Shown piece by piece: positions 10,500 to 49,215 of a stretch of DNA of 64,000 nucleotides. This stretch comes from Flavobacterium magnum. GTDB taxonomy: Bacteria; Bacteroidota; Bacteroidia; Flavobacteriales; Flavobacteriaceae. The DNA lies in the NCBI RefSeq assembly GCF_003055625.1, contig NZ_CP028811.1:1860001-1924000 (forward strand), written 5' to 3'. Under the pieces are notes generated by a model. That model saw only the letters and a list, made by a program, of their open reading frames with translations, was not told the DNA's origin and ran no database searches. The position numbers were made by a program, and so were the translations under genes. Within the stretch, counting starts at the first letter, position 1; each line of letters begins with the position of its first letter.

Positions 10500-10590
10500 A
10501 GCTGATCCGGCACTCCGCTGTATCTTTTACTGCTGAAAAACGCAGTAAAAGGATGCCGCTCCGGTCCGGGCTAGGGGCGGGAGACACACC
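10500..10590 (-). repeat. Dispersed structured repeat, copy A
   Basis: Read on the minus strand: AGCGGCATCC, then a 9-bp perfect stem made of TTTTACTGC/GCAGTAAAA (10525-10533 and 10542-10550 on the plus strand) with an 8-base loop, then GATACAGCGG. The flanking arms are shared with copies at 19748, 26321, 40054 and 49104, while the inner stem is different in each. It lies in the 240-base gap between the SDR gene and parA. Confidence 0.75.
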
Positions 10591-10617
10591 GGGACAGTTC
10601 GCGGTTGCAATTGCCTT

Positions 10618-11514
10618 TTATGATGATTTTTTGGCCTTGATCATCGCTTCGAGCATATCCCACATTGAATCCGGAATTGCCTCCAGCAGGTTGAATTGTC
10701 CCGCGCCTTTGAGCCATTCGCCCCCGTCAATGGTAATGACTTCGCCATTCACATACGCTGAAAAATCGGACACCAGGTACGCCGCAAGGTTGGCCAGCTC
10801 CTGATGGTCGCCCACGCGTTGCAGCGGCACTTTCTTGGCCATATCGAATTTTTGCGCCAGGTCGCCGGGCAACAGGCGGTCCCAGGCGCCTTTCGTCGGG
10901 AAAGGTCCGGGAGCGATCGCATTCGACCGGATGCCGTATTTCGCCCATTCCACAGCGAGGCTGCGTGTCATCGCCAGCACGCCGGCTTTGGCGGTTGCAC
11001 TGGGCACCACGTACGCCGATCCGGTCCAGGCATAAGTCGTCACGATATTGAGGATAACATTGTCCGTTTTTTTGGTTTCAATCCAATGTTTCCCAAAAGC
11101 CAGCGTGCAGTTTTTTGTGCCCTTCAGGACAATGTCGATAATCGTATCGAAGGCGTTTGCAGAGAGTCGTTCAGTGGGCGAAATAAAGTTACCCGCAGCG
11201 TTATTGAGCAGCACGTCCACCTTTCCGAAAGCCGAAACGACCGAGTCAAGCATTTTTTCCACCTGTGCATAATCGCGCACGTCGCATTGCACGGGCAGGC
11301 ATTTGGCGCCATTTCGGTTTCCTGCGGTGGCTGCTTCCAGTTCTGCTGCAGTTTTTTCCAGTTTCTGGAGGTCACGGGACGTGATGGCCACACTGGCCCC
11401 GAGTTCGAGGAAATATCGTGTCATCGCCTTCCCAAGGCCGCTGCCGCCGCCCGTAACTACAATCACCTTATTTTCAAGTGCACCGTCACGGAGCATTTTT
11501 TTTGAGAAATCCAT
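10618..11514 (-). CDS. SDR family oxidoreductase, 2,4-dienoyl-CoA reductase type
   Basis: A 298-aa short-chain dehydrogenase with the NADP-binding TGGGSGLG motif (about 21-28), NNAAGNF (about 108-114) and SATAKAGV in place of the usual YxxxK catalytic pair. The NNAAGNF box and the loss of the SDR tyrosine are characteristic of peroxisomal/bacterial 2,4-dienoyl-CoA reductases (DECR), which remove double bonds during beta-oxidation of unsaturated fatty acids. The C-terminal GGEWLKGAGQFN region also fits that subgroup. It stands alone, with structured repeat copy A after its stop. Confidence 0.88.
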   Translation of the reverse strand: MDFSKKMLRDGALENKVIVVTGGGSGLGKAMTRYFLELGASVAITSRDLQKLEKTAAELEAATAGNRNGAKCLPVQCDVRDYAQVEKMLDSVVSAFGKVDVLLNNAAGNFISPTERLSANAFDTIIDIVLKGTKNCTLAFGKHWIETKKTDNVILNIVTTYAWTGSAYVVPSATAKAGVLAMTRSLAVEWAKYGIRSNAIAPGPFPTKGAWDRLLPGDLAQKFDMAKKVPLQRVGDHQELANLAAYLVSDFSAYVNGEVITIDGGEWLKGAGQFNLLEAIPDSMWDMLEAMIKAKKSS

Positions 11515-11676
11515 GGTTTTGGTTTTTGAGCTAATATAAATAGAAAGTTCGGAATTCGGAGCAGCGGTAACAAAGATTGCCGGCGTTTTGATTTTTCCGG
11601 CATTTTTTTTTAGCTGGTTAAAAAGAGAGGCCCCAAATGATTATTTTGCAGCCTGAAACCATTACGACAAACAGCC

Positions 11677-12282
11677 ATGAAAAAGCTTTTTCTTTTATCA
11701 GCCTTGGTATGCGGCCTGCACGGATTTTCCCAGAAAATGCGTTATGGCGCGCTGTTGGGTATGAACGCTTACGACATTGAAGTGAGCGGACCGCTGATTG
11801 CAGGCAACGGACTCAGTGGTCTCAACTTTGGCGGATTCATCGATTACCAGTTCAGCAGCCACTGCGGATTGAAGGTGAACATGATTTTCAACAAGACCAC
11901 TGAAACCGATTATGGGCCATTGGAGTCGGGTACCTACTACGAAATTTTCGACGAGGCGAAACTCACCACGTTGCAGTTGCAACCCCTCATTAAATTTGAC
12001 GTCAACAAGGTATACGCCAAAGGTTTTTACCTACAGGGCGGCCTGAATATGGTCAATATCCTGAGAGCCAGGGCTGACGACGGGACATCTTTGAAGAATT
12101 TTTATAACCGTACCGCATTCAGCGGTATGCTGGGTTTCGGTGTGACTTTCTTGAAGCATTACAGCTTTGAATTGATGGGCAGTTACAGCCTGACCAATCC
12201 GATTGGTTTCCCCGAAAGCAGAGCCAGAAATATGGGAGCGTACACAAACCTCCTGATTGATATCGAGTCATTCCTGAAATAA
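11677..12282 (+). CDS. Outer membrane beta-barrel protein (PorT/OMP_b-brl type)
   Basis: A Sec signal peptide of about 19 residues (MKKLFLLSALVCGLHGFSQ) is followed by alternating amphipathic strands (MRYGALLGMNAY, LNFGGFIDYQF, LTTLQLQPLIKFDV, GFYLQGGLNMV) typical of small eight-stranded flavobacterial barrels. 201 aa. No specific function can be assigned. A clear terminator follows. Confidence 0.8.
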   Translation: MKKLFLLSALVCGLHGFSQKMRYGALLGMNAYDIEVSGPLIAGNGLSGLNFGGFIDYQFSSHCGLKVNMIFNKTTETDYGPLESGTYYEIFDEAKLTTLQLQPLIKFDVNKVYAKGFYLQGGLNMVNILRARADDGTSLKNFYNRTAFSGMLGFGVTFLKHYSFELMGSYSLTNPIGFPESRARNMGAYTNLLIDIESFLK

Positions 12283-12308
12283 GATATTTCGGCTGATCCA
12301 AAAAATAA

Positions 12309-12337
12309 AAACCAATCCCGGGAAGGATTGGTTTTTT
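12309..12337. terminator. Bidirectional terminator between the barrel gene and tRNA-Pro
   Basis: AACCAATCC pairs with GGATTGGTT, with T6 on the plus side and an A-rich (T-rich in reverse) stretch on the other side. It can end the barrel gene on the plus strand and the tRNA transcript on the minus strand. Confidence 0.8.
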
Positions 12338-12340
12338 CCG

Positions 12341-12414
12341 TCGGGATGACTGGATTCGAACCAGCGACCCCTAGCACCCCATGCTAGTACGCTACCAGGC
12401 TGCGCTACATCCCG
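12341..12414 (-). tRNA. tRNA-Pro (anticodon GGG)
   Basis: A 74-nt cloverleaf on the minus strand: acceptor CGGGATG pairs with CATCCCG, A is the discriminator, the T-loop GGTTCGAATCC is standard, and the anticodon stem CTAGC/GCTAG holds the loop ATGGGGT, giving anticodon GGG for CCC/CCU codons. No CCA is encoded. Confidence 0.95.
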
Positions 12415-12509
12415 AAATGGGTCTGCAAATATATTTCATTTATGGAACTGGCAAAATAATTAGCCGATAAATATGCAATTTTTTGCAGGGCATGCCCGCC
12501 AAGGTAAAC

Positions 12510-13379
12510 TCAGTGCGCCGCTTTTGTTTTTCCGAAGATCTTTTTAACGATGGTAATTACCGCGACGGCTGCGAGTCCGACTGCGAGTCCGAGTATAAAT
12601 TCCGTCAAAGTGACCGGAAGCCCGGGCAGGAAATGATGGAAATAACCGATGTTGTGCATGAAAATTCCTCCGGCGACCAGGATCAGTGCCAATGTTCCGA
12701 CAACGGCGAGCATCTTGATGACCATAGGCAACAGCCACACCAGGAATTTTCCCAATCGGCATAAAAAACCGGAATTGTTACTTTTCCGCATCAGGTGGTA
12801 ACCCGCATCGTCCATCCTTACAATCAGCGCCACGAGTCCGTAGACGCCGATTGTCGCAAGCACCGCCACGATGGTAACGGTCGCGATCTGCGTGGTCAGG
12901 TCCTTTTCTAACACCGATCCGAGCGCGATAATCACGATTTCGACCGAAAGGATAAAATCAGTAGTGATGGCTGACCTCACTTTCACTTTTTCATCATCTG
13001 CGGCGTCGCTGATATGCGCCTCGGTTGTTTCCGCGACATGCTTTTTATGGAAAAAATATTCGATGATTTTCTCAACCCCCTCGTAAGCCAGGTAGATGCC
13101 GCCCGAAATCAGGGCAAACGTAATGGCTATGGGGAAATAGTAGTTCAGCAGGAACGCGATTGGAAGGATGATGAGCTTGTTCAGGAACGATCCTTTCGTG
13201 ATGGCCCAAAGCACCGGTAGCTCCCGGCTGGCAAGGAATCCCGTCGCTTTTTCCGCATTGACGGCGAGGTCGTCGCCTAAGATCCCTGCTGTCTTCTGTG
13301 TTGCGATTTTGCTGCTCACGGCAATATCATCCATCAAAGCTGCAATGTCGTCTAATATTGCAAAGAAACCTCCTGCCAT
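12510..13379 (-). CDS. DUF808 (YedI-type) inner membrane protein
   Basis: A 289-aa protein opening with MAGGFFAILDDIAALMDD, the signature of DUF808/YedI, followed by several hydrophobic segments and an acidic cytoplasmic loop near 115-135 (KKHVAETTEAH...). The family is conserved but its function is not established; a transport or membrane-stability role has been guessed. It is a single gene between tRNA-Pro and mutB. Confidence 0.88.
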   Translation of the reverse strand: MAGGFFAILDDIAALMDDIAVSSKIATQKTAGILGDDLAVNAEKATGFLASRELPVLWAITKGSFLNKLIILPIAFLLNYYFPIAITFALISGGIYLAYEGVEKIIEYFFHKKHVAETTEAHISDAADDEKVKVRSAITTDFILSVEIVIIALGSVLEKDLTTQIATVTIVAVLATIGVYGLVALIVRMDDAGYHLMRKSNNSGFLCRLGKFLVWLLPMVIKMLAVVGTLALILVAGGIFMHNIGYFHHFLPGLPVTLTEFILGLAVGLAAVAVITIVKKIFGKTKAAH

Positions 13380-13480
13380 ATTTTTGATTTGAATTTTTTC
13401 TAATTGTTTGCTGTCAGCATGAGGATCACTTCAGGCGGTGCCTGCGCTCAATTGTAAGCGTTAATTCCCTCAGGTCGCTG

Positions 13481-15616
13481 CTATACTTCGGGCATCAAGA
13501 TCTCCAGTATCTGGATCGCCGCCTCACTGATTTTGGTTCCCGGCCCAAACACCGCTACAGCTCCCGCATCAAAAAGATACTGATAATCCTGTGCCGGGAT
13601 TACGCCGCCTACGATTACCATAATGTCTTCCCGGCCATAACGCTTCAGCTCGGCAATAACCTGTGGTACGAGGGTTTTGTGGCCTGCAGCCAAAGAGGAG
13701 ACGCCCAATATATGCACGTCGTTTTCCACGGCCTGTTTCGCGGCCTCCGCAGGGGTCTGGAATAACGGCCCGATATCAACATCGAAACCGACGTCGGCGT
13801 ACCCGGTCGCGACTACCTTTGCGCCGCGATCGTGGCCGTCCTGGCCCATTTTTGCAATCATGATCCTTGGCCTGCGTCCTTCCGTTTTTGCGAAGGCGTC
13901 GGCAAGTTGCTTCGCTTTGGCAAAGCTTTCGTCGTTCTTGATTTCTTTACTGTACACGCCGCTGAATGATTTGATTTGTGCTTTATAACGCCCGAAAACC
14001 GTTTCCAATGCATCGCTGATTTCACCCAGTGTGGCCCGGTGGCGTGCCGCTGCTACCGCGAGTTCGAGCAGGTTTCCGTCTCCGGTCTTTGCGGCGGTAA
14101 TCAGTGCGTCTAAGGCGACTTTAACTTTAGCATTATCTCTTGAGGCTTTAATTTGTTCAAGCCTTTCCACCTGCTGTTTCCGCACCATCTGGTTATCAAC
14201 ATCAAGAATGTGCAGTGGATCTTCTTTTTTCAACCTGTATTTATTGACGCCGACAATGATGTCCTGGCCGCTGTCGATGCGTGCCTGCTTGCGCGCAGCA
14301 GCTTCCTCAATGCGCAATTTGGGGATGCCTGCTTCAATCGCTTTGGTCATGCCACCGAGCCGTTCGACTTCTTCAATAAGTGCCCAGGCTTTGTCGGCGA
14401 TTTCCGCGGTAAGCGATTCTACATAATAACTGCCCGCCCACGGATCGACGGTTTTGGTTATTTTGGTTTCCTCCTGTAAGAAAATTTGTGTGTTCCGTGC
14501 AATCCTGGCCGAGAAATCGGTGGGCAGCGCGATGGCCTCATCCAATGCGTTCGTATGCAGTGACTGGGTACCGCCGAATGCTGCTGCTGCTGCCTCAATG
14601 CAGGTGCGCGCTACATTGTTAAACGGATCCTGTTCCGTCAGGCTCCACCCTGATGTCTGGCAATGTGTGCGCAGCGCCAGTGATTTTTCATCCCTGGGGT
14701 GAAACTGCTTCAATAGTTTTGCCCAAAGCATCCGCGCCGCACGCATTTTGGCAATCTCCATAAAATGGTTCATGCCGATCGCCCAGAAAAACGACAGCCT
14801 GGGTGCAAACTCGTCAATATTCATGCCTGCTGCCAGTCCAGTGCGGATGTATTCCAATCCGTCTGCTAAAGTATAAGCCAGCTCAATATCTGCCGTGGCG
14901 CCCGCTTCCTGCATATGGTAGCCTGAAATTGAAATCGAATTGAATTTCGGCATTTTCTTACTGGAATAATCAAAGATATCCGCGATGATTTTCATCGATG
15001 GGGCAGGAGGGTAGATGTAGGTATTGCGTACCATAAACTCTTTGAGGATGTCATTTTGGATCGTTCCGGAAAGTTTTTCCGGCTTCACGCCCTGCTCCTC
15101 GGCCGCGACGATATAGAACGCCATTATCGGCAATACGGCGCCATTCATTGTCATCGAAACCGACATTTCGTCCAGCGGAATCTGGTCGAACAGCAATTTC
15201 ATATCCTCAACCGAGTCAATGGCGACACCGGCTTTACCGACATCCCCTACGACACGCTCATGATCTGAGTCGTAACCGCGGTGCGTGGCCAGGTCGAAAG
15301 CAACAGACAACCCTTTCTGCCCGGCGGCAAGATTTCGCCTGTAAAAGGCATTGCTTTCCTCGGCGGTTGAAAATCCTGCATATTGTCTGATGGTCCAGGG
15401 TCGGCGCACGTACATCGTGGCGTACGGACCGCGCAAATTCGGAGCAAATCCCGCGCCGAAATGCAGGTGTTCCAGCGCTTCCACGTCCGATTTTGAGTAG
15501 GAAGACCTGATCCCAATGCCTTCTGCCGTTAAAAAGGCGCTGTCGTCGTTTAGGCTTAGCGAACCGTTATTTTGGCTATCGGCCAGACTGAGATGTCCTA
15601 AATCCTTTCGCATCAT
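13481..15616 (-). CDS. mutB: Methylmalonyl-CoA mutase large subunit
   Basis: Catalyses the adenosylcobalamin-dependent interconversion of succinyl-CoA and (R)-methylmalonyl-CoA, used in propionate metabolism. 711 aa, with the N-terminal TIM barrel ([23 protein letters not shown]) and a C-terminal B12-binding domain whose DxHxxG motif is D593-G-H595-D-R-G598; the histidine is the lower axial cobalt ligand. Starts with two ATG-type codons at 15616, overlapping the small gene upstream by 4 bases. The G-protein chaperone meaB (47026) and a cobalamin adenosyltransferase (55994) lie elsewhere in the window. Confidence 0.96.
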
Positions 15617-16068
15617 TTCTCCACAATTTTAAAAGTCCATTTCCGCGTCGTATAATTGGAATTCGCGGCTTCCATGATGCCCGCGCCAATCGTTGCTCCT
15701 GATCCTGCCACAAACACGAGGAATGCGGCATTATTCCCGGCAGTGGCGATGGCAATTGAGGTCGCTACCGTCGCCAGTCCCGCGAAGAGCACTACGGTTT
15801 TTACTGTCCCGAGCACTTTTGGCTGTTTCTTAATGCTTTGCAGGCTGTCAATCGGGATGGTATGGTTACCGATCTTCAAGGTGGTATTGTCGGTGAACGC
15901 AAGCAATCCTACGTGTTTTTTATGGTCGAGCGTGCGCGCTTTGACGCGTTCGTTTTCGATAAAGGTTTTGATTTTGCCGCTGTCGTTGTTGGTGAGTTCC
16001 AGTGCACGTTGTTGTGAAAAGGCGGCGAAAGAAACAAGACAGGCTAAAAGAAGTAAGGTGTTTTTCAT
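15613..16068 (-). CDS. Hypothetical exported protein between mutA and mutB
   Basis: A 151-aa protein with a signal peptide (cleavage probably after AAFSQ, residue 19), a soluble N-terminal half ([24 protein letters not shown]) and two Gly/Ala-rich hydrophobic stretches at about 88-132, then a short polar tail. I do not recognise the family. It overlaps mutA and mutB by 4 bases each, so it is certainly co-transcribed with the mutase genes, yet a secreted or membrane location makes a direct part in the cytosolic reaction unlikely. Confidence 0.75.
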
Positions 16069-17438
16069 GGGTTTTCGTTTTCGGTGTCGAGGCGTTCCTG
16101 TTCCATTTTTTCGGCAAGGCGCTTCTCGATGATGGGTGGAATCAGTGTTTTTCGGGGTTTTAGCTTTACGAAAGGAAACAACTCGAGTTCATGCTTCATC
16201 CTGTCGTTTTTGTTTGGGTATTTGTTTGTCCCCAAAAGCACTTCTTTGCCCGAATCGAACAGCTCTTGTTCACGTTGCGCGCTATCGTTGATTTTCTTGT
16301 TGATTGTACCATCGGAAAGCTGTTTCAGGAATCCGCCCGCGGCCTCGATTTCCTTAAACAGTGCCAAGGCTTTTTCTGCCAGTTGCAGTGTCAGGCTTTC
16401 AATGTAATAACTGCCGTCGGCCGGGTTTTCGGCCTTGTCAAAATAACTTTCGTTTTTCAGGATCAACAACTGATTCCTGGCAATCCTGCCTCCAAATTCA
16501 TTGCCCTTATGATACAGCGCATCGTAAGGCATATTCGCCACGGCATCGGCGCCGCCTGCGATTGCTGCCATGCTTTCGGTCGTAGTGCGCAGCATGTTCA
16601 CGTTATAATCGTAAAGCGTCTTGTTTCGTTTCGAAGGCGTGGCGATGATATGGCAACCGGTTTGCACGCCATATTCTCTGGCCACCAGATCAAACAAAAT
16701 ACGCAATGCCCGGAGTTTGGCAATCTCAAAAAAATAATTTGACCCGATGGCGACCTGAAACACGGGTGGGTGGGCTATATCCGGGATGTGATTGAAATAT
16801 TCGTTGGCATGCGACAGTGAATACGCCAGCTGCTGCACGATATTCGCGCCGGCATTCTGGTACAGGGCACTGTCAATGCTGATGGTTGGAAAGGTTGCAC
16901 GTCCCGGTAAACCGCGCAGTGCTGAAAAATTGTCCTCTCCCGGAGTGTCGATCCAGTTTCCTTCCCTGGCGAGGTGCCCTACGGGATCGATCAGGCAGTA
17001 AATCGACGCTTTATTGTCATTGGCAAATGCAGACACCTTCTCCATGAAGGCCTTTGAGATGAATGGAAGGCTCAGGTAAACCGTTGTGCCATCCGCAGGA
17101 AGGGCCGAAAGCAGCCGAACTATGTCAGTGTCTGCCGAAGGAATATGGAAACGCAGGCTTTCTGCGCCGCGGCTCAGGCAATCCTGTGCCCTGCTGATGG
17201 ATTTCTGCAATTCGAAAACGAAAATATCCTCGCAGATCGAAAATCCTTTCTGGCTTTGTGGCTGCAGGGTGGCAGTGTCCTCATCGGCGTGGTAGAAAGG
17301 TTTCACCTTAATGCCTTCCGGACTTTCCCAGACCAGCGTTTCGTTGTAATCGGCGCCGCGAAGCTCAAACTGGATCTGCTGCTTCCATTGTTTAGAGGAT
17401 ACGGGTCCGAAGGCGTCAAATGATGTAGGTTTTGCCAC
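16065..17438 (-). CDS. mutA: Methylmalonyl-CoA mutase small subunit
   Basis: Homologous to the N-terminal TIM-barrel part of the mutase (TTTESMAAIAGGADAVANMPYD, ARNQLLILKNESYFDKAENPADGSYYIE is the typical active-subunit region). It contains no B12-binding domain and lacks the DxHxxG motif, so it is the non-catalytic partner of MutB. At 457 aa it is about 160 residues shorter than the propionibacterial small subunit, which keeps a remnant B12 domain. It heads the mutA-orf-mutB operon. Confidence 0.93.
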   Translation of the reverse strand: MAKPTSFDAFGPVSSKQWKQQIQFELRGADYNETLVWESPEGIKVKPFYHADEDTATLQPQSQKGFSICEDIFVFELQKSISRAQDCLSRGAESLRFHIPSADTDIVRLLSALPADGTTVYLSLPFISKAFMEKVSAFANDNKASIYCLIDPVGHLAREGNWIDTPGEDNFSALRGLPGRATFPTISIDSALYQNAGANIVQQLAYSLSHANEYFNHIPDIAHPPVFQVAIGSNYFFEIAKLRALRILFDLVAREYGVQTGCHIIATPSKRNKTLYDYNVNMLRTTTESMAAIAGGADAVANMPYDALYHKGNEFGGRIARNQLLILKNESYFDKAENPADGSYYIESLTLQLAEKALALFKEIEAAGGFLKQLSDGTINKKINDSAQREQELFDSGKEVLLGTNKYPNKNDRMKHELELFPFVKLKPRKTLIPPIIEKRLAEKMEQERLDTENENP

Positions 17439-17514
17439 GCAAAAAATGTTTTATGTGCTTTAAAAAGAAGCGTTATTTTGTGGAACGAAATTTACTTAAA
17501 AAAAACGAATCGGA

Positions 17515-17853: not shown

Positions 17854-17914
17854 AGTTTAAATTTCCGGAACGGGTATTCTTATATGGAGCCAATGGCTCG
17901 GACCACACCATCAA

Positions 17915-18523: not shown

Positions 18524-18543
18524 ATCTGCATTTTTTGTTTAGG

Positions 18544-19729: not shown

Positions 19730-19747
19730 TCCCGGTTTCGCGTTGCT

Positions 19748-19835
19748 GCGTTAGGGATGGAAGCGGCATCCTTTTTTGCCGGCGTTAGCCAGGCACAAAA
19801 AGATAAAGCGGACAGCCCGGGCCGGAGGCAACGCC
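19748..19835 (+). repeat. Dispersed structured repeat, copy C
   Basis: GCGTTAGGGATGG, then AAGCGGCATCC, a stem TTTTTTGCC / GGCACAAAAA (19772-19780 with 19792-19801), then GATAAAGCGGACAGCCCGG and GGCAACGCC. The ends GCGTT and AACGC are complementary, forming an outer stem. It lies between the convergent DoxX and M16 genes. Confidence 0.75.
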
Positions 19836-26238: not shown

Positions 26239-26320
26239 AATAAATGCCTGTAACTATAGGGTATTGTTTTTGGGCGTTTCCCCGTTGCGGAACCTGAGCC
26301 GTCCGATGCTTATATTTACT

Positions 26321-26405
26321 GCAACGGGGCCGGGCTCTGCGCTGTATCTTTTACGGCCTCCGCTGCGCTGCGGCCGCAAAAGGATGCCGCTGCGATCCCT
26401 AACGC
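26321..26405 (-). repeat. Dispersed structured repeat, copy B
   Basis: Minus-strand reading: GCGTTAGGGATCGC, AGCGGCATCC, a stem of TTTTACGGCC (26349-26358) with GGCCGCAAAA (26372-26381) around a GC-rich loop, then GATACAGCGC and GCCCGG. It sits in the divergent promoter region between thrS and the SRAP gene, so it is not simply a terminator. Confidence 0.72.
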
Positions 26406-26518
26406 AGAATCGTTCCATGTGCAGGCCATCGGAAGCAGTGTAATTTGATAAACAATATTGTATTTGTGTAAGAATTGTGGATTTGCGGATGTCTAAATTT
26501 ACAATCAAACTTGGGGTT

Positions 26519-27494: not shown

Positions 27495-27680
27495 CACCCG
27501 CTTTGAGACACAAGCGATATAAGAAAGATTGACACGTTCATTGATATATTGGATTGACAGCACTTCCGGAGTGATTCGGAAGTAAGCAGAGAGTAAGGGA
27601 AATCGGAAGATTTTCGAGAGAATAAAAATACGTTAGAAATTCGTCTGAAAAATACGCCAAGCGATTGGCAAACAATATAC

Positions 27681-29196
<1,516 letters not shown>

Positions 29197-29295
29197 AGAG
29201 AAAGGCGACATTTTAGCATATTACCATTAGGATCTCTGATGGTTTTCATTACTCTCGCTGTTGGTTCAAAAAAACAATCCAAGAAAAACAAACAG

Positions 29296-29369
29296 AGTCT
29301 CGTAGCTCAGCTGGTTAGAGTACTACACTGATAATGTAGGGGTCGGCAGTTCGAGTCTGCCCGGGACTA
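29296..29369 (+). tRNA. tRNA-Ile (anticodon GAT)
   Basis: 74-nt cloverleaf in the 16S-23S spacer: acceptor AGTCTCG/CGGGACT, D-arm GCTCAGCTGGTTAGAG, anticodon stem CTACA/TGTAG with loop CTGATAA (GAT), T-loop AGTTCGAGTCT. No encoded CCA. Confidence 0.96.
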
Positions 29370-29477
29370 CTACTTTGTTTTTTGTTTGGGTAAAGGAAAT
29401 TTTAGAAGTTGAGTTACACTTACTGGTGAACCGTTCAAGCAACTGTTAACTGTAAAGGTTGACCGTACACTAAAAAC

Positions 29478-29551
29478 GGGGGATTAGCTCAGCTGGCTAG
29501 AGCGCCTGCCTTGCACGCAGGAGGTCATCGGTTCGACTCCGATATTCTCCA
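29478..29551 (+). tRNA. tRNA-Ala (anticodon TGC)
   Basis: 74-nt cloverleaf: acceptor GGGGGAT pairs with ATTCTCC (two G-U pairs), anticodon stem CCTGC/GCAGG with loop CTTGCAC (TGC), T-loop GGTTCGACTCC. The usual second tRNA of the spacer. Confidence 0.96.
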
Positions 29552-29579
29552 CGATCAATCCATCGGATTGAAAAAGTTC

Positions 29580-29594
29580 ATTGACATATTGGGA
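29580..29594 (+). other. 5' strand of the 23S processing stem
   Basis: The 15 bases 29580-29594 pair with 32630-32644 over their full length (13 Watson-Crick and two G-U pairs), bracketing the 23S gene. This is the expected pre-23S stem for RNase III-type processing. Confidence 0.6.
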
Positions 29595-29626
29595 TAAGAA
29601 AATACAAAAAGTAGAAAGAACACAAA

Positions 29627-29695
29627 GTTTACAGTGTACAGCTTACGGTTTACAGTGCAAACTGTTAACTGTTAACTGTCAACCGTAAACTCAAA
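29627..29695. repeat. GTTTACAGT/ACTGTTAAC repeat cluster in the 16S-23S spacer
   Basis: Short related units (GTTTACAGT, GGTTTACAGT, ACTGTTAACTGTTAACTGT, CCGTAAAC) form both direct and inverted repeats; the two ends AGTTTAC and GTAAACT are complementary. A second shorter cluster (AACTGTTAACTGTAAAGG) precedes tRNA-Ala at about 29448-29465. Confidence 0.6.
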
Positions 29696-29701
29696 AGTAC
29701 A

Positions 29702-32580
<2,879 letters not shown>

Positions 32581-32682
32581 CGCCTTCCGGGCCTTCGGGC
32601 CCGGGACACTTTTTGCATGTAAATTTTTGTCCCAATGTGTTAATAATATAATGTGATCGGAACACCGATCGCGTAACGACTT

Positions 32683-32790
32683 AAGGTGGTTATTGCGGCG
32701 GGGCTCACCTCTTCCCATCCCGAACAGAGAAGTTAAGCCCGCCTGCGCAGATGGTACTGCAGTTTTGTGGGAGAGTATGTCGTCGCCTTT
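32683..32790 (+). rRNA. 5S ribosomal RNA
   Basis: About 108 nt: AAGGTGGTTATTGCGGCGGG at the 5' end, CCCATCCCGAACAGAGAAG in the middle and GTCGTCGCCTT at the 3' end, which pairs with the 5' end. Followed directly by a terminator. Confidence 0.95.
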
Positions 32791-32798
32791 CTTTATGG

Positions 32799-39206: not shown

Positions 39207-40046
39207 TCAGGGGTTATACGATAACGCTCTCGGAACGGTCATCAGGTAAATGGTGGCCGTTTTTTCGTCAGAATCGCTGTCCTCGCAAACCAGGAATTCC
39301 AATGCGGTTTCGGTCTGCCGGTAAAAGGTAAGGCCTTCGAATTTGTGCCTGCCCGGAATCATCATGACGTCCTCGACATGGTAATTTTCGGGGTTCATCC
39401 TTCCGAAAATACTGCCGATGATGGTGCCATCCTCGTAGGTCGATTTGGTATCTTCCGCCGACGCCAGGAAAAAAATCGCGTCACCGACTGTAGTTGCGTC
39501 TGTAAATGATGCGGCAAATCCGTCGATATCCGGAAGGTGTACCGGGACGAACCGCACGGCATTCCCGGGTTCATTCCTTGAAATAAAGACGCCGTTGCAG
39601 CCACCCGCGCCGTTGCCGCGCTGGAAAAACAGCCAGTGGCCGTCACGGAATACCGCACCTTCAATATTGAATTCCGATGCAGGCACTGAGGCACTGCGTT
39701 GCAGGCTTTCGTAACGTGCAGAGAGGTCTTCGGTGACGACGCTGCCGGAACGTAGATCGTAAATATACAGCAGGCACCGGTTAGGCTTTGATCCGGAACC
39801 GAAGGCGTAAATACGATTCTTGTACAGTGTCAATGATTCCACATCAGGTTTAGCGGGCTTTGGGATATGTTCAGCGGGATCGGCTGCGAGCGGCACCGTA
39901 CTGCAACGATCCGTTGCGGGATCGAACACGTAAAGGTATTGGCTGTTGTCGGCAATCAGGTACAAGGTGCGGTCATGGTACAAAATCCCCGAGGCGGCAC
40001 TGATGCCCGGGATCTGGAAGTAAGGACGGATAGCGCAGGTGACCAT
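39207..40046 (-). CDS. DUF6929-like beta-propeller protein
   Basis: 279 aa, no signal peptide. Repeated short beta units (GILYHDRTLYLIADNSQYLYVFD; LTLYKNRIYAFGSGS; GAVFRDGHWLFFQRGNG; VGDAIFFLASAED) suggest a propeller; the pattern resembles the flavobacterial DUF6929 family, related to phytase-like esterase propellers. No catalytic residues are evident. Start at 40046 (MVTCAIRPYF) is preferred to an in-frame ATG at 40079 that lies inside structured repeat copy D. Convergent with the ABC-F gene with 4 bases between stops. Confidence 0.72.
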   Translation of the reverse strand: MVTCAIRPYFQIPGISAASGILYHDRTLYLIADNSQYLYVFDPATDRCSTVPLAADPAEHIPKPAKPDVESLTLYKNRIYAFGSGSKPNRCLLYIYDLRSGSVVTEDLSARYESLQRSASVPASEFNIEGAVFRDGHWLFFQRGNGAGGCNGVFISRNEPGNAVRFVPVHLPDIDGFAASFTDATTVGDAIFFLASAEDTKSTYEDGTIIGSIFGRMNPENYHVEDVMMIPGRHKFEGLTFYRQTETALEFLVCEDSDSDEKTATIYLMTVPRALSYNP

Positions 40047-40053
40047 GGCGGGT

Positions 40054-40134
40054 GGGGATAGCCCGGATGGAAGCGGCATCCTTTTCCTTTTTTCTTTAAA
40101 AAGGAAAAGATACAGCGTACAGCCGGAAATTGCT
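40054..40134 (+). repeat. Dispersed structured repeat, copy D
   Basis: GGGGATAGCCCGGATGG and AAGCGGCATC lead into a perfect 12-bp stem, CTTTTCCTTTTT (40081-40092) with AAAAAGGAAAAG (40098-40109), then ATACAGCGTACAGCCGG. It lies between the divergent DUF6929-like and PPK2 genes, only about 8 bases upstream of the former's start. Confidence 0.75.
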
Positions 40135-41759: not shown

Positions 41760-41933
41760 GAGTCGGCATTTTTGAGGTCGGTTACAGAATTACAGGGTAT
41801 TGTTATAATGTACACAGGTAGGCTTTTTCATACATAAATGCGAAGGATGCGATTCGTCGGAAGAAGTTTCCAGACAGGGGGTATTCGGTTTTAACCCGCG
41901 GCATTTCTGCTTTATGCTTTCAGCCTTTTACGT

Positions 41934-41941
41934 TACCTTTG
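41934..41941 (+). promoter_or_regulatory. TAnnTTTG promoter element that sets the MATE start
   Basis: TACCTTTG overlaps an upstream in-frame TTG (41939); a start there would fall inside the promoter, so the ATG at 41957 must be the start. Leader of about 10 nt. Confidence 0.6.
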
Positions 41942-41956
41942 CGCGAAAATTTCGGC

Positions 41957-43372: not shown

Positions 43373-43408
43373 GACATTCTTTAAATCGTCATTCTACAAT
43401 TCAATAAT

Positions 43409-43642
43409 ATGGAACTACCAAAATTCGTCCTGGCCGACAACTCCGATTTTCCTGAGGATATTTTTATCATCCACCTTGATTATCCGCGTTTTATCATCAA
43501 TCTCAAGGACGACGAAGTCGAAATTATGGAAGAGGCTGAGGACCTTGATGAAGCCGAGCTGAACGCTGAAATGGAAAGCCTGATCATCGAGGCGAATGCT
43601 TTCTACGACCGTGAAATGGAACGGTATGAAGGGGAAAATTAA
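43409..43642 (+). CDS. Small acidic hypothetical protein
   Basis: 77 aa, strongly acidic (about 25 Asp/Glu). No signal or membrane segment. MELPKFVLADNSDFPEDIFIIH and ANAFYDREMERYEGEN look like a conserved flavobacterial protein I remember as uncharacterised. It lies between the MATE gene and the DUF4836 operon. Confidence 0.75.
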   Translation: MELPKFVLADNSDFPEDIFIIHLDYPRFIINLKDDEVEIMEEAEDLDEAELNAEMESLIIEANAFYDREMERYEGEN

Positions 43643-43741
43643 TTGTGCCGACTGCGTCGTAACCGAGAATCCGGATAAACAAACAGACGCCTCGTCATTG
43701 CGTTTCCAATCCCAAACGTTTACAACAATCAAAAATATCAT

Positions 43742-45232
43742 ATGAAGAAAATTATCTATGGCCTGGCCGTGTGCCTGGCAATCCTGATGGCGTCCTGTGG
43801 CAAGGACAGTGACAACGAGGAAATCCTGAAATACACAACCGAGAAAACCCTCGCAATTGTCAAGATCAACCTGCAGCAGCTCGATAAAAAACTGCCGAAG
43901 GACGAAATGCTCAACGACAAAACGGGTAATTTTTCGGACAAGGACAGGGAAAAGATGGAATTGTTCCTGAATGCAGATAAGAATGGCGTCGATATCGAAA
44001 GGCCGTTATACCTTATGACCGACCAGGACAGGGACGGATTTGCGTTCTCTTTTTTCGGGTGGCTCGCTGACCAATCGAAATTCACTGCCAATTTTTCAAA
44101 GATTACCGGTTCTAAAATACGCATCGACGCGACCACGCAATTGATTTATGCCAATGATCAGCTTATCGGCAGCATACAGGACGATATGATCGTACTCTCG
44201 CGCCACGTCGGCAATCCGATGGCGATGGTCTACGGAGGTTCTACAGGTTCTCCAGACAATACGCTGACGGCTGGTTTCTATACGGCCCTGTGGAAGCGCA
44301 AGCCGGTTGATAATAAAAATGCCATTGACCAGATTGAAAAATCACTCGACAGCGGGTCTGATGTCAGTTCGTGGATCAACCTTTACGGCATGATCAACAC
44401 GTTTTCAAAAGGCTACATCGAAACGCTCGCGGTCAACAAATTGCTTATCGGCGCAGGATTTGGCGTCAGCCTGAATTTTGGAGAAGGGAAGATTGCATTC
44501 AAAGGGAGTACGTTCTTCAATGATGATCTGAAAAAATTGGTGCAGAAATTCTATAACGGCAAGACGGTGGATTACAATATCGTGAAAAACATCGAAATCG
44601 ACCGTACCAAAAATTACAGCCTCGGATACATGAGTCCGGAATTTATCAGGTATTTTGTGAAAGAGGCCGGCTTTGAATCGATGGCCAATAATTTCCTCGA
44701 ATCGAGAGGCATCACCTTAGAAGAGATCACCAATGCGCTGACCGGCCAGTATGCCTTCACCCAGTTCCGCGAGGACGATACCGCCCAGGCGGCGCCCCAG
44801 GTTGACGAGTACGGTTTTCCGGTGGTGTCATACGCGCAGCCAAAATTCCTGCTGGCCCTGGGTATACACGCGGATAAAGCCCAAAAACTCATCGGCCTCG
44901 TGACCGCAGAACCAATGCTTGAGCAAAATGCCAAAGTGTATCACGATAAGGAATTGCTCGTGGTGGCCACAAACGAAAATGACATGGCGCTGCTTAAAAC
45001 CAATAAGCCCGCGGTCAACAGTTCGCTTAAAAAACAATCTGGGGTGACCGGCTACAGCTGGTCAGACGCTTCTGATGCCAACAACATGCTTCAAACCGGC
45101 AACAGGAAATTGAAAGTCGTAAGCATGGAATCGATCTCGAACGTCAGGGACGGTAACTTCACTTCAGAGGTGACTATTACTGTCGATAAAAGCAAAAAAA
45201 ATGTACTTCATTACCTGATGGGATATGAATAG
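43742..45232 (+). CDS. DUF4836 family lipoprotein
   Basis: 496 aa. Lipobox LMASC with C19, followed by GKDSDNEE. The region EKTLAIVKINLQQLDKKLP and later repeats are typical of DUF4836, an uncharacterised Bacteroidota lipoprotein family of about this size. Its last 8 bases overlap the next gene, so it is co-translated with an ABC ATPase and an FtsX-type permease. Confidence 0.82.
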   Translation: MKKIIYGLAVCLAILMASCGKDSDNEEILKYTTEKTLAIVKINLQQLDKKLPKDEMLNDKTGNFSDKDREKMELFLNADKNGVDIERPLYLMTDQDRDGFAFSFFGWLADQSKFTANFSKITGSKIRIDATTQLIYANDQLIGSIQDDMIVLSRHVGNPMAMVYGGSTGSPDNTLTAGFYTALWKRKPVDNKNAIDQIEKSLDSGSDVSSWINLYGMINTFSKGYIETLAVNKLLIGAGFGVSLNFGEGKIAFKGSTFFNDDLKKLVQKFYNGKTVDYNIVKNIEIDRTKNYSLGYMSPEFIRYFVKEAGFESMANNFLESRGITLEEITNALTGQYAFTQFREDDTAQAAPQVDEYGFPVVSYAQPKFLLALGIHADKAQKLIGLVTAEPMLEQNAKVYHDKELLVVATNENDMALLKTNKPAVNSSLKKQSGVTGYSWSDASDANNMLQTGNRKLKVVSMESISNVRDGNFTSEVTITVDKSKKNVLHYLMGYE

Positions 45233-45875
45233 CATCACGCTCGACGGCATCACGCCAAAATACTTTGTCCCGAAAACAATGGCGACTGCCGCTACGATCT
45301 GGAACACGAAAACCACTTTCACGAAAGGCGAATATTATCTTGTGATTGCGCCATCCGGAAGTGGAAAATCGACTTTGGCAACGGCGATGCTCGGGAATCA
45401 TTTTGAATATGACGGGACTATTTTATATGACCTGGTAAGTCTCAAAACGCAGTCGCTTGAGCAGATTGTGGCGTTCCGAAGGAACCAGCTCCAGTTGCTT
45501 TTTCAGGATGTGCGCCTGATCCCGGACCTTACCGTCCGTGAGAATGTGCTGTTGCGGACGTTCGGTAAAAAGAATGCCGACTTTGAAAGCAAGCTGCAAT
45601 CGTACGCGGACACGCTGGGCATATTGCCGCTACTTGACAAAAAGGCGAAGAACTGTTCCTACGGGGAAAGACAACGTTCCGCGATCGTGCGTAGCCTCAT
45701 AAACCCGACTGATTTTCTCGTGTATGACGAATGTTTCAGCCACCTCGACCTCAAAAACAAGCAAATTGCATTTGACCTGATTATTCGGGTGGCCGAGGCG
45801 CATGGGAGCGGTGTGATATTTTTTGAGCTCAATGATTTTCCGTTCCCGCATCAATGCCATATCCTGAATTTATGA
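45225..45875 (+). CDS. ABC transporter ATP-binding protein
   Basis: 216 aa. Walker [10 protein letters not shown] (about 43-51), Q-loop LFQDVRLIPDLTV, signature CSYGERQRSAIVRSL (C-S-Y-G in place of LSGGQ) and Walker B FLVYDECFSHLD. Diverged from LolD/FtsE/MacB ATPases but with all catalytic motifs except the altered signature. Starts within the DUF4836 gene and its TGA overlaps the permease ATG. Confidence 0.88.
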   Translation: MNSITLDGITPKYFVPKTMATAATIWNTKTTFTKGEYYLVIAPSGSGKSTLATAMLGNHFEYDGTILYDLVSLKTQSLEQIVAFRRNQLQLLFQDVRLIPDLTVRENVLLRTFGKKNADFESKLQSYADTLGILPLLDKKAKNCSYGERQRSAIVRSLINPTDFLVYDECFSHLDLKNKQIAFDLIIRVAEAHGSGVIFFELNDFPFPHQCHILNL

Positions 45876-47029
45876 TGAAACAACTGACCAAATCCTTTTT
45901 CCTGTACCTGGGATTGTTCCTGGCGTTTGCGCTGGTGTTGAGCTGTGCACAGCTTTATGTGAATGCCAATGCACTCTTCGGAAGCAGGAGCAGTGAGGCC
46001 AACTATTGGCTGACGATGTCCAAAACCATTACGCCGGACAACATTGGCAGGAAGGAATTGATCGGCTTCAATGACAGGGATATCGCCGATCTGAAAACGT
46101 GGAAGGAAGTCAAAAGCCTCTATCCGGTCGTATCAAACGATTTTAAGGTCTCGGCCGACGGGGGTGATTTTATTCCGTTTTATACCGATATGTATCTCGA
46201 AGCCGTGGATGACGATGCCATTGACATCCGCGATTTGTCCGCATTCAAAGTCAAGGGCAACGTGCTCCCGATCATCATCTCGCGCGAATACCTGAACCTG
46301 TACAACTACGGCTTTGCACTGAACCAGGGTTTGCCGCAGATCACCGAGGAATTTGCCAAAAAGATTGAAGTCAATATCAACCTCAGGCTAAAGGAGAAGA
46401 ACCTCAGGTACACCGGCAGGCTTGTGGGCTTGTCAGACAGGATCCACTCGGTTTTGGTACCGAAGCATTTCCTGGATTCGATCAACGGCACACAGGACTT
46501 CAGTAAGGCGCACCAGAATATCTTCACACGTGTGCTCGTGAAGGTAAACGATGCCAGCGATCAGGACCTGATTGAGAAAATGAAGCAGAAAGGTTACGAA
46601 TCCAATCAGGAATCGCTGCGTTCGGCAAAAATAAAAAGCAAGTTGTTCCTGGTACTGAAGACCATCGCCCTGATTGGCGGATTCATTTTCCTGTTGTGTA
46701 TTTTTATGATTGTGAATTTTATCAAGATGCAGTTCCTGGAACAGCACGAAGCCGTCTCCATAAAATATTCGCTGGGATACTCCCCACGGAAGATGGTGCG
46801 TTCCATCAGCCGCTTTTTCAGTATTAACCTGGGTATAGTGTTGCTGATCTGTCTGGGGTTGCTGTCTGTCGGCCAATACTACCTCGGTACGGCACCCATA
46901 GCCAATGGGCTGCTCCCGAAGTTCATCCACATCTACCTCTGGCCATTGGTTTTGATCGTGCCGCTGGTGGTGTATGTGGTCGTCAACTGGCTGATTTACC
47001 GCTGGCTGATCAAATCCTGGAAATTTTAG
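45872..47029 (+). CDS. FtsX/MacB-type ABC permease
   Basis: 385 aa: one membrane segment near the N-terminus (SFFLYLGLFLAFALVLSCAQLY), a large periplasmic domain (about 45-250) and three segments at the C-terminus, the classic FtsX/LolC/MacB topology. LKTIALIGGFIFLLCIFMIVNFIKMQFLEQHEAVSIKYSLGYSPRKM is the FtsX-family core. Such mechanotransmission permeases act on lipoproteins, peptidoglycan hydrolases or efflux pumps. ATG at 45872 (ATGA overlap with the ATPase). Its stop overlaps the opposing meaB stop by 3 bases. Confidence 0.85.
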   Translation: MMKQLTKSFFLYLGLFLAFALVLSCAQLYVNANALFGSRSSEANYWLTMSKTITPDNIGRKELIGFNDRDIADLKTWKEVKSLYPVVSNDFKVSADGGDFIPFYTDMYLEAVDDDAIDIRDLSAFKVKGNVLPIIISREYLNLYNYGFALNQGLPQITEEFAKKIEVNINLRLKEKNLRYTGRLVGLSDRIHSVLVPKHFLDSINGTQDFSKAHQNIFTRVLVKVNDASDQDLIEKMKQKGYESNQESLRSAKIKSKLFLVLKTIALIGGFIFLLCIFMIVNFIKMQFLEQHEAVSIKYSLGYSPRKMVRSISRFFSINLGIVLLICLGLLSVGQYYLGTAPIANGLLPKFIHIYLWPLVLIVPLVVYVVVNWLIYRWLIKSWKF

Positions 47030-48114
47030 GCTTTAAAATACTGTTCCAATAAAAGACGGGCCGCTGCAAATGGGGATATTTCACCCTGCTGCACGGCCCT
47101 TTTCATATCGTCCAAAGATGCCGAAATGTCGCTGTTGTTGAAAAACCTTTCCTTGAGTTGGCGCTCGATCGTTTCCATCATCCAGTACTGGTTTTGCGCC
47201 GCGCGCCGTTTTTCAAAGAAGCCATTGGATTTAGTGAGCCGGAGGTATTCCGAGATGGTTTCCCACACGGCTCCAATACCGGTCTTCTCCACTGCGCTGC
47301 ACGTGGAAACCGTCGGCTGCCATCCCGAATCTTTTGCCGGGAATAAATGCAGCGCCCTGTTGAATTCCGTTTTAGCGAGCTGGGCCCTTTTGATATTGTC
47401 GCCGTCTGCTTTGTTGATGACAATCGCATCGGCCATTTCCATGATGCCGCGCTTGATGCCCTGCAGCTCGTCGCCCGCGCCGGATATCTTGAGCAGCAGA
47501 AAGAAGTCGGTCATGCTGTGTACGGCCGTCTCACTCTGTCCCACACCGACGGTTTCAATCACGATAATGTCAAACCCCGCCGCTTCACATAAAATGATCG
47601 CTTCACGCGTTTTCCTCGCCACGCCGCCCAAAGCTTCTCCTGAGGCTGAGGGCCTGATGTAAGCCCGCTCATCTTTAACGAGTTCTTCCATGCGGGTTTT
47701 GTCGCCCAGGATGCTGCCGTGCGAAAGGGTGCTGCTCGGATCTACTGCCAGTACGGCTACCTTCCTGCCGATTGCGGTGAGCTGGGAGCCGAACGCCTCG
47801 ATGAAGGTACTTTTCCCTACGCCGGGCACCCCGGTGATCCCGATACGCACCGATCGGTTGGCATGTGGCAGGCAGCCATTTATGACTGTTGTCGCTTTTT
47901 CAAAATGATCCGGGTTGGTGCTTTCAATCAGCGTGATGGCTCGGCTCAAAGCTGTTTTGTCTCCGCGGATGATGCCTGATATCAACGCTTCGGCACTGGG
48001 CTGGATGCGTCTATAATTGCGTACCTGCTGCGCTGACTGGGCGCTGACGGTATCTGGCGGCGGGATGCCGGCCTTTTCCTGAAGTGTCGCGGGTCTTTTG
48101 TTTTTGTCTGGCAA
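47026..48114 (-). CDS. meaB: Methylmalonyl-CoA mutase-associated GTPase MeaB
   Basis: 362 aa. A G3E-family GTPase that gates cofactor loading and protects methylmalonyl-CoA mutase. Walker A GVPGVGKST at 95-103, VDPSSTLSHGSILGDKTRM (switch-region signature of MeaB/ArgK), ETVGVGQSE and the base-specificity motif NKAD. The N-terminal extension and C-terminal dimerisation arm are both present. It lies about 30 kb from mutAB, so the mutase set is not one operon. Confidence 0.95.
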   Translation of the reverse strand: MPDKNKRPATLQEKAGIPPPDTVSAQSAQQVRNYRRIQPSAEALISGIIRGDKTALSRAITLIESTNPDHFEKATTVINGCLPHANRSVRIGITGVPGVGKSTFIEAFGSQLTAIGRKVAVLAVDPSSTLSHGSILGDKTRMEELVKDERAYIRPSASGEALGGVARKTREAIILCEAAGFDIIVIETVGVGQSETAVHSMTDFFLLLKISGAGDELQGIKRGIMEMADAIVINKADGDNIKRAQLAKTEFNRALHLFPAKDSGWQPTVSTCSAVEKTGIGAVWETISEYLRLTKSNGFFEKRRAAQNQYWMMETIERQLKERFFNNSDISASLDDMKRAVQQGEISPFAAARLLLEQYFKA

Positions 48115-48172
48115 AATCGTGCGTTTGGTACGTAAAAGTAATCATAATTCACAATTCCTGATTTGTAATCTC

Positions 48173-48180
48173 TAATTTTG
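48173..48180 (+). promoter_or_regulatory. TAnnTTTG promoter element immediately before the AEC gene
   Basis: TAATTTTG ends only 4 bases before the ATG at 48185, so a start site at the usual distance falls at or next to the A of ATG (leaderless mRNA likely). Confidence 0.5.
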
Positions 48181-48184
48181 CCGC

Positions 48185-49096
48185 ATGGAAAACATCCTAC
48201 TGATTTTTATCTGCCTGTTTGTAGGGCTGATGCTGCAGCGGGTCCGGCAATTGCCCGCGCAGGCCCATAAGGTATTGAACCTGTTTGTCATTTACGTCTC
48301 GCTTCCTGCGCTGGCGCTGTACTACATACCGAAAATCGTTCTGGGTCCTGCACTGCTGTATCCGCTGGGCGTGGCCTGGATCGGATTCGGTTTTTCGTTC
48401 TTATTCTTCCGCACACTGGGACAATGGCTGAAATGGCCGCGCAGGCTTACGGGCTGCCTGATCATCGTGTCCGGGTTGGGGAATACGTCATTCGTAGGGT
48501 TTCCGGTCATACAGGCCTTGTATGGAGAACAGGGACTGCAGACGGCCATCATTGTGGATCAACCGGGCTCATTCGTGGTGATGGCCACGTTGGGGATCAT
48601 TACGGCGATGGTGTTTTCCGGCAACAAACCCGATCTGCGTACGATATCGATGAAGATATTGATTTTCCCGCCGTTTGTCGCGTTTGTACTGGCTGCAGTC
48701 ATGAACCTGCTTAACACCGATTTCCCAACGCTTTTGCAACAGTCACTGCAGAAACTCGGCGCGACGGTGACCCCTATCGCCCTGGTGTCAGTAGGTTTAC
48801 AGCTTACGTTTGACGTGAAGAGCAGGCACTGGCGTTTTTTGTCGCTTGGGTTGTTGTTTAAACTATTTTTGACGCCCGCGTTGATTTTCATATTGTACCG
48901 GTGCATCCTTGGGGAAAAAGGAATGGCGATCGACGTCTCGGTGATGGAAGCGGCGATGGCACCGATGATTACCGGTGCGATCGTGGCTTCGGGTTACGGA
49001 CTCAAGCCGAAACTGAGCAGTATGATGATCGGGATTGGGATTCCGTTGTCGTTCCTGACCCTGTGTTTTTGGCACTGGATACTGTCCGTCGCGTAG
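48185..49096 (+). CDS. AEC family transporter
   Basis: 303 aa, about ten hydrophobic segments in two repeats, with the conserved glycine/proline-rich cores GNTSFVGFPVIQALYGEQGL and MEAAMAPMITGAIVASGYGL. AEC (auxin efflux carrier-like) proteins export organic acids or similar anions. Substrate cannot be predicted. A structured repeat follows 8 bases after the stop. Confidence 0.9.
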   Translation: MENILLIFICLFVGLMLQRVRQLPAQAHKVLNLFVIYVSLPALALYYIPKIVLGPALLYPLGVAWIGFGFSFLFFRTLGQWLKWPRRLTGCLIIVSGLGNTSFVGFPVIQALYGEQGLQTAIIVDQPGSFVVMATLGIITAMVFSGNKPDLRTISMKILIFPPFVAFVLAAVMNLLNTDFPTLLQQSLQKLGATVTPIALVSVGLQLTFDVKSRHWRFLSLGLLFKLFLTPALIFILYRCILGEKGMAIDVSVMEAAMAPMITGAIVASGYGLKPKLSSMMIGIGIPLSFLTLCFWHWILSVA

Positions 49097-49103
49097 GATG
49101 TTT

Positions 49104-49215
49104 GCGTTAGGGATAGCAATGGAAATCCTTTTTTTGTCAACGGAAATGGCCCGGTTATCCCGTCGCAGGCCGACAAAAAAAGATTGCAATGGATAGCCCG
49201 GCCGCAGGCAACGCC
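49104..49215 (+). repeat. Dispersed structured repeat, copy E
   Basis: GCGTTAGGGATAGCAATGG, a perfect 11-bp stem CTTTTTTTGTC (49128-49138) with GACAAAAAAAG (49172-49182) around a 33-base GC-rich loop, then ATTGCAATGGATAGCCCGG and GGCAACGCC. In this copy both flanking arms carry GCAATGG where the others carry AGCGG. The outer ends GCGTT/AACGC also pair. Confidence 0.75.

Follow-up and report, generated by a model that had tools for sequence, protein, structure and literature searches.

Five structured repeats in a 64-kb region of Flavobacterium magnum are short members of Flavo-1, an interspersed non-coding Flavobacterium repeat

The region presented here is a stretch of 64,000 nucleotides of the Flavobacterium magnum genome (contig NZ_CP028811.1, positions 1,860,001 to 1,924,000; the whole stretch is called the window below), and the gaps between its genes hold five dispersed copies of a structured repeat, named A to E (Table 1). 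All five score above the gathering cut-off (42 bits, covariance-model score) of Rfam RF01705, with 47.8-76.7 bits, and belong to the short members of Flavo-1, a non-coding repeat interspersed through Flavobacterium. Flavo-1 is an already described family (Rfam; Weinberg et al., 2010, as a computational motif) and not a new one. A preliminary description of the window had reported five copies with shared arms and differing but paired interiors, and it proved accurate: each copy was located at its place, the gaps are tandem (A and E), convergent (C) and divergent (B and D), and in copy E both arms are altered together (AGCGG to AATGG on each side, with the pair AT/AT). A permissive scan (E up to 5) found no sixth copy in the window. 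Flavo-1 is entered in a 2010 table of candidate RNAs as "RNA: probably; cis-regulatory: probably not" (PMC2864571, Table 1), and a review places it in its section on the most abundant small RNA (sRNA) families, where no function is stated (PMC9029176).

Table 1. Position, architecture and surroundings of the five Flavo-1 copies of the window.
Copy	Strand	Rfam extent	Score (bits)	Element extent	Architecture	Stems and hairpins	Gap	Neighbouring genes
A	-	10500-10576	61.5	10500..10576	type I (TAGCCCGGA...AGTGCCGGA)	interior stem TTTTACTGC/GCAGTAAAA	tandem, sense	SDR (2,4-dienoyl-CoA reductase-like) / ParA-like
C	+	19740-19826	48.4	19748..19834	type II, three-way form	outer stem GCGTT (19748-19752)/AACGC (19830-19834); side hairpin GCC-GGA-GGC (19821-19829); near-perfect interior stem TTTTTTGCC/GGCACAAAAA	convergent	DoxX-like / M16 peptidase
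B	-	26324-26408	47.8	26274..26405	type II	outer stem GCGTT (26405-26401)/AACGC (26278-26274); long side hairpin CCCCGTTGC...GCAACGGGG; interior stem with cap GCAGCGCAGCGGA	divergent	ThrRS / SRAP
D	+	40056-40133	76.7	40056..40133	type I	interior stem TTTTCCTTTTT/AAAAAGGAAAA, loop TCTTT	divergent	DUF6929 / PPK2
E	+	49099-49207	54.1	49104..49214	type II	outer stem GCGTT (49104-49108)/AACGC (49210-49214); side hairpin GCC-GCA-GGC (49201-49209); inner 2-bp helix AT/AT; interior stem TTTTTTTGTC/GACAAAAAAA	tandem, sense	

Genome analysis led to at least 97 Flavo-1 matches in F. magnum, 88 of them above the cut-off, when 150 of 800 first-look candidates were scored. Concerning relatives, 39 of 59 genomes have a match, namely 34 of 36 from the same genus (two of these 34 with one weak match only) and 5 of 23 from other families; copies per same-genus relative range from 0 to at least 65, and the 14 control genomes have none (0/14). 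The many further copies anticipated in the genome and the genus were thus found. Flanks were fetched for all 97 F. magnum copies and genes were called by a simple codon-usage script; no gene call extends across the middle of a copy, and a few gene ends touch a copy edge. Tandem gaps hold 29 sense and 37 antisense copies (p = 0.39), convergent gaps 14 and divergent gaps 16, with one copy at a locus edge. A replication-strand bias was rejected (34+/31- versus 17+/15-) in a test weakened by an origin guessed from GC skew. Likewise rejected was a carrier gene flanked by Flavo-1 pairs, since the genes beside close copy pairs look like housekeeping genes by eye.

Reading of the 97 copies revealed two architectures. 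The Flavo-1 base consists of short helices alternating with 3x3 internal loops and is followed by a variable interior, and the ends read TAGCCC/GCGTTAGGG and GCTCC/ACGCC. Type I carries its interior between TAGCCCnGATnGnAGcGGnATCC and GATnnAGCGnAnAGCnGGAnnnAGCTCC. Type II, represented by copies B, C and E, reads GCGTTAGGGATnGnAGcGG...AGCCCG, then a side hairpin and then AACGCC, with an additional covarying outer stem (GCGTT/AACGC, GCAAC/GTTGC, GCGTC/GACGC, GCGCC/GGCGC and others). A script labelled 71 copies as type I and 26 as type II, and a separate regular expression placed 28 type II outer stems. The bulged C of ATCC/GAT is present in nearly every copy; the parser was anchored on this bulge and so gives no independent count. 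The window copies share with RF01705 the basal stem, the symmetric loops and the occurrence in Bacteroidota, but the Rfam model (76 positions) describes the type I base only, without the type II outer stem, the side hairpin or the tip of the long form presented below. Type II is a second architecture outside that model and is new here. A limited open-access literature search found nothing naming type II or the long form, and a search by the letters of the arm motifs returned only papers that appear unrelated from their titles and the start of their abstracts. A search with an exact type II arm pattern gave matches in 21 of 60 genomes (F. magnum included), all in the genus, with 0 for the reversed control, and the AACGC partner is present at 26 of 30 loci from this pattern search (two of the 30 in F. 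magnum). A third interior class, ...AGCCC...GAGGACTTG(N)AG without the ATCC/TTTT block, was observed at L249, L253, L257 and at F. magnum 352598, the last with an Rfam score of just 30.6 bits.

Pairing was examined in 151 copies, 94 from F. magnum and 57 from relatives (the best-scoring matches, orthologous pairs included), each tested against shuffled partners. The inner 2-bp helix is paired in 145 of 151 (shuffled mean 114, maximum 122) and in at most 44 with the partner slid by 1-3 columns. The pair GATn/n'AGC takes all four Watson-Crick forms (G-C 59, A-T 48, T-A 24, C-G 11; 142/149, shuffled mean 47, maximum 66), and the type I pair CCnGA/GCnGG is paired in 115 of 116 copies parsed by regular expression (shuffled mean 49, maximum 64). 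These three counts leave out four copies with unparsed arms (F. magnum 352598, 2965878 and 3264665, and L053) and lean towards paired copies because the search model scores those pairs. The Rfam model covers neither the type II outer stem nor the long-form tip. The 5-bp outer stem is perfect in 26 of 28 copies (shuffled mean 9.3, maximum 17; three more F. magnum copies have no right arm findable by regular expression), with seven different left 5-mers among the 26 and nine among all 28. The shuffles ignore relatedness; yet at one orthologous site, the DUF6929-PPK2 gap that holds copy D (gap D), the outer pair takes all four Watson-Crick states and is paired in 42 of 43 permissively parsed sequences, F. 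magnum included (T-A 31, G-C 4, C-G 4, A-T 3, mismatch 1). The 3x3 loops are kept while the helices change; in one subtype of 80 copies, 65 have GNA as the left loop side and 66 as the right one. Pairing is strongly conserved.

The mechanism behind the paired changes is partly block exchange. The close genome pair G006 and G086 (96% over one 4.6-kb locus; 40 and 25 matches) was compared over 32 and 17 of its copies, respectively, which gave 13 orthologous pairs. Five of these have interiors that differ by an edit distance of 12-25, although 48-60 of 60 flanking letters match on each side. For four of these pairs, both interiors resemble copies elsewhere more closely than their ortholog (e.g., 1 versus 19); the fifth pair, where the loop of one side contains an inserted hairpin, shows this for one of its two interiors. 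A sixth pair shows 6 edits with pairing kept save one A.C, in poor flanks (30 and 38 of 60), the pair L158/L182 has G-C versus A-T at one base pair, which is an ordinary paired substitution, and L161/L183 has a shared core with hairpins inserted in both arms. In F. magnum itself, four interiors are each identical at three loci, some with different outer pairs. Because interiors differ as whole blocks and recur at other loci, pairing can survive in one step by exchange, block exchange from other loci of one genome and ordinary recombination with an unseen strain being indistinguishable here. Selection on structure had been argued from the paired changes. That the structure is kept is upheld, but the changes are often whole-block differences between orthologous sites and not independent compensatory mutations.

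At eight places one genome of this pair lacks a recognisable copy (L151/L181, L157/L186, L163/L188, L140/L184, L166/L185 and G006 C12:349132, C5:226612 and C11:663296). Of these only L163/L188 is clean, and a deletion between short direct repeats is the likely reading there; neither a fresh insertion nor a clean empty site was found among the places compared. Small palindromes were also seen to nest within Flavo-1 or to replace part of it, namely TCCCGATCGCTATCGGGA in the loop of L216 (G086 C25:124637), CCCGAAAATTTGGGA and TCCGAAATTTCGGGA in the arms of L183, and TTCCGATAGCTATCGGAA in "empty" gap D loci such as L285; the nested ones appear to be other palindromic repeats inside Flavo-1.

The folded strand is reflected in the mismatches of the interior stems. 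Mutation alone predicts as many G.T as A.C, whereas the F. magnum copies have 37:4 (25:4 when each distinct context is counted once, p = 1e-4). The direction of the neighbouring genes does not alter the sign of this excess (sense 7:1, antisense 12:3, convergent 10:0, divergent 8:0), which therefore cannot be put down to read-through transcripts. Folding is better for the sense strand in 139 of 151 copies with DNA energies and in 96 of 151 with RNA energies. The side-hairpin loop of type II is GNA in 15 of 18 parsed F. magnum copies and in 7 of 9 side hairpins parsed at the pattern-search loci, and GNA mini-hairpins with two or more G-C pairs are described as extraordinarily stable in DNA (PMC4686876). 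Interior tips are YCTTT (40), GNA-type (23) or other (23) in 86 distinct F. magnum interiors, and YCTTT (27), GGGTT (7) or other (16) in 50 distinct interiors of relatives. The same argument, judging single-stranded DNA (ssDNA) against RNA by loop types, is found for the STAXI motif, which has the RNA-like UUCG loops (PMC2864571); unlike STAXI, the predicted hairpin loops of the 151 Flavo-1 copies include no UNCG, and GNRA in 4 of 167 (RNA energies) or 8 of 197 (DNA energies). Strand asymmetry, folding energies and loop types together lean to ssDNA as the folded form, short of proof.

Concerning the ends, target duplications were rejected in the 97 copies (mean longest shared word 4.30 versus 4.17 shuffled, sd 0.10), although old duplications may have decayed, and no GTAG or CGTC tetranucleotide was seen by eye at one end of any of them. 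An A-run is present on the 3' side, with A5 within 25 nt in 54 of 97 copies, compared with 4 of 97 on the 5' side and 14 of 97 at +40-65. In type I it stands beside gene starts (21/32) and stops (22/39), in type II it is weaker (5/13 and 5/12; 10/25 in total), and copies of relatives have it in 38 of 57 on the 3' side versus 14 of 57 on the 5' side. It may be a target preference, a part of the element or a tail.

A gene for a transposase like that of repetitive extragenic palindromic (REP) elements, the REP-associated tyrosine transposase (RAYT), had been proposed as something to look for, and it is absent: Y1 transposases (PF01797) gave 0 matches in F. magnum. PF01797 is present in 33 of 60 genomes, and the Y1 number does not follow the Flavo-1 copy number (up to at least 65) across 37 Flavobacterium genomes (Spearman -0.06, p = 0.74), for which reasons membership in RAYT/REP was rejected. 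Likenesses remain, as REP elements are described as imperfect hairpins that occur in high copy number, lie mostly in extragenic DNA and form subfamilies whose paired stems alternate and contain G-T pairs (PMC3733652). The same source gives them 20-40 bp, compared with about 70 to 150 for Flavo-1, which also differs from the GTAG/CGTC families in the missing tag, the missing Y1 and the exchange of interiors as blocks. Like miniature inverted-repeat transposable elements (MITEs), Flavo-1 copies are short non-coding interspersed palindromes in large numbers, but they have no target duplication and no parent transposon was found among the genes read, i.e., those beside close pairs, and their base is conserved by structure and not by a fixed terminal sequence. 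The variable tip and the bulge may also resemble those of an attC-like site.

These data lead us to read Flavo-1, with a probability of about one half, as a REP/MITE-like non-autonomous repeat that spread in trans, with selection on its folded sense strand and with copies that keep, swap or lose their interiors. A putative enzyme would recognise one folded strand through base and tip, with no fixed end sequence, and would spread the copies in trans. Resident copies would persist, or exchange interiors by short-tract conversion or template switching at the hairpin, and may also lose interiors by deletion; the selected form would be the folded sense strand, more likely ssDNA than a transcript. 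The non-autonomous mobile element suggested at first thus holds as a plausible mobile origin, and not as a fresh insertion, as none was seen and the sole clean presence/absence pair reads as a deletion. Several points weigh against such a repeat. No mobilising enzyme was found, F. magnum has no Y1 transposase, and target-site duplications and clean empty sites are missing from the copies and places compared. Flavo-1 had no match in plasmids or phages (one composite query) or in viral contigs (two exact arm patterns), and a search of viral contigs with the DUF6929 neighbour protein gave no confirmed relative. The gap D element is old and in one orientation (40/40 strict matches), as would be expected of a conserved site and of a fossil insertion alike. 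The G.T:A.C ratio of the relatives (10:4) is not significant alone, and RNA would account for the asymmetry just as well. Not all loops are GNA (0/50 interior tips of relatives; the commonest F. magnum tip is YCTTT, 40/86), only 9 of the 30 type II pattern loci parse as CC-NNN-GG side hairpins, and in one of the five exchanged pairs part of the difference is a hairpin that was inserted in the loop.

Many gap D copies have a long interior with AGCGACYANNRGAAGCTC at its tip, and this long form, about 140 nt in length and with a conserved tip absent from the Rfam model, is new here. The 18-mer tip occurs in 55 of 101 genus genomes, with up to 21 copies and 0 for the reversed control in all, and in an order-wide draw it was found in 14 of 18 genus genomes, 0 of 12 from other genera of the family and 2 of 166 others; F. 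magnum has one exact match (C1:217106). Among 30 fetched long-form loci, a strict regular expression found both Flavo-1 arms in 21, the left in 23 and the right in 26, and the tip stem has 4.57 of 5 Watson-Crick pairs (shuffled 3.10, maximum 3.70) with 14 different left arms. Eight hand-picked long forms align to one rod of 53 predicted pairs, 34 with two-sided change. Rfam gave 35-61 bits to 10 long forms, modelling the arms alone and spanning the rest as an insertion, and no other Rfam family reached its cut-off on them. It is conceivable, and we put it forward tentatively, that the catalogued Flavo-1 is just the basal part of a non-autonomous element, a rod some 140 nt long, whose tip and base are recognised by a putative enzyme on the folded sense strand (ssDNA or reverse-copied RNA), the short hairpins being cap-swapped derivatives at fixed sites. 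A genome would then hold about 100 sockets at fixed chromosomal positions, with hairpin caps exchanged as blocks, and the 3' A-run would suit a route like that of short interspersed nuclear elements if the folded RNA is reverse-copied. The long form and type II are concrete testable targets, for a tip-binding protein and for an extended covariance model. By eye, the F. fluviatile copy (L269) has a short interior within the arms and flanks of a long-form clade. A module loosely like the long-form tip, AGAGCGAACGGGCGAAGCAAATAGCTCC, was also observed directly 3' of a Flavo-1 copy in L001 (F. magnum 505378) and L052 (two genomes).

Flavo-1 may instead be a structured RNA, a trans sRNA or an mRNA-borne element for stability, processing or protein binding, in line with its Rfam type "Gene; sRNA" and its first description as a probable RNA (PMC2864571, Table 1). 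The G.U-type asymmetry on one strand, the high stability of the rod (z -6.5 when the L353 long form is folded as RNA) and a tip and base conserved as in protein-bound RNA speak for it. We nevertheless regard it as unlikely, because the copies have no orientation preference relative to genes, antisense copies show the same strand asymmetry, and promoter and terminator signals were not seen: the 71 type I copies have no conserved upstream sequence, and TAnnTTTG lies upstream in 4 and downstream in 9 of the 97 copies. A T5 run within 25 nt of the 3' end occurs in 4 of 97 copies (6 of 97 on the 5' side), which rejects an intrinsic terminator and agrees with the earlier view that the copies are not just terminators. 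The asymmetry regardless of gene direction and the missing signals together disfavour an sRNA gene. In F. psychrophilum, Flavo-1 matches are described as lying in sense and antisense without distinction, many of them beyond transcribed regions, although several 5' transcribed regions coincide with such matches (PMC9723704).

Gap D bears on a further explanation, in which copies are kept as protein- or topology-binding chromosomal sites, of the bacterial interspersed mosaic element/gyrase kind or of a nucleoid-like kind, and position matters. The best 80 relatives of the PPK2 beside copy D (76 titled Flavobacterium, 4 titled Flavobacteriaceae bacterium or [Flexibacter] sp.) led to Flavobacteriaceae loci of which 77 of 80 have a syntenic DUF6929-PPK2 gap. 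A strict regular expression on both strands found the left arm in 40 of 77, all 40 oriented like copy D, and a permissive parse on the + strand only adds 6 (46/77), so the copy D site is old and its orientation conserved. This, together with the fact that no gene call spans any of the 97 copies, would suit a host site. We consider such a role quite improbable, as 31 of 77 gaps have no arm by either parse (L334 among them resembles a copy by eye), 2 of 36 same-genus genomes have no copy and several have 1-4, and leading and lagging strands show no bias, with the origin guessed from GC skew only. Several "empty" D gaps retain a right-arm remnant by eye, and loss by deletion is likelier at these for that reason. 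The longest open reading frame of the DUF6929 gene (window 39207-40079, minus strand) starts within copy D, so that its first residues would come from Flavo-1 letters, and the true start probably lies further in.

Finally, a purely mutational origin of the covariation, by template switching that makes and re-makes perfect stems at quasi-palindromes, is very doubtful: template switching is described as able to create and maintain hairpins and to yield multibase compensatory changes (PMC8794818), interiors change as blocks, L150 carries the L042 interior with its loop inverted and a hairpin was deleted between direct repeats, but the unpaired 3x3 loops kept between covarying helices, whose mismatches template switching would erase, are hard to obtain by this process alone, and the G.T over A.C asymmetry is not predicted by it.

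If Flavo-1 is indeed a DNA-level repeat with exchanged caps, sRNA censuses in Bacteroidota are inflated and covariation alone is no proof of a functional RNA. Apart from Flavo-1, another interspersed repeat was noticed, as the first ~35 nt of the search anchor GGAGTTACTCGCGAAGATTTCTCCTTCGTCGAA recur tens of times in G006 and G086. In the window, an rRNA operon (16S, two tRNA genes, 23S and 5S) is located at 27679-32791, with copy B about 1.3 kb ahead of it and the SRAP gene in between.

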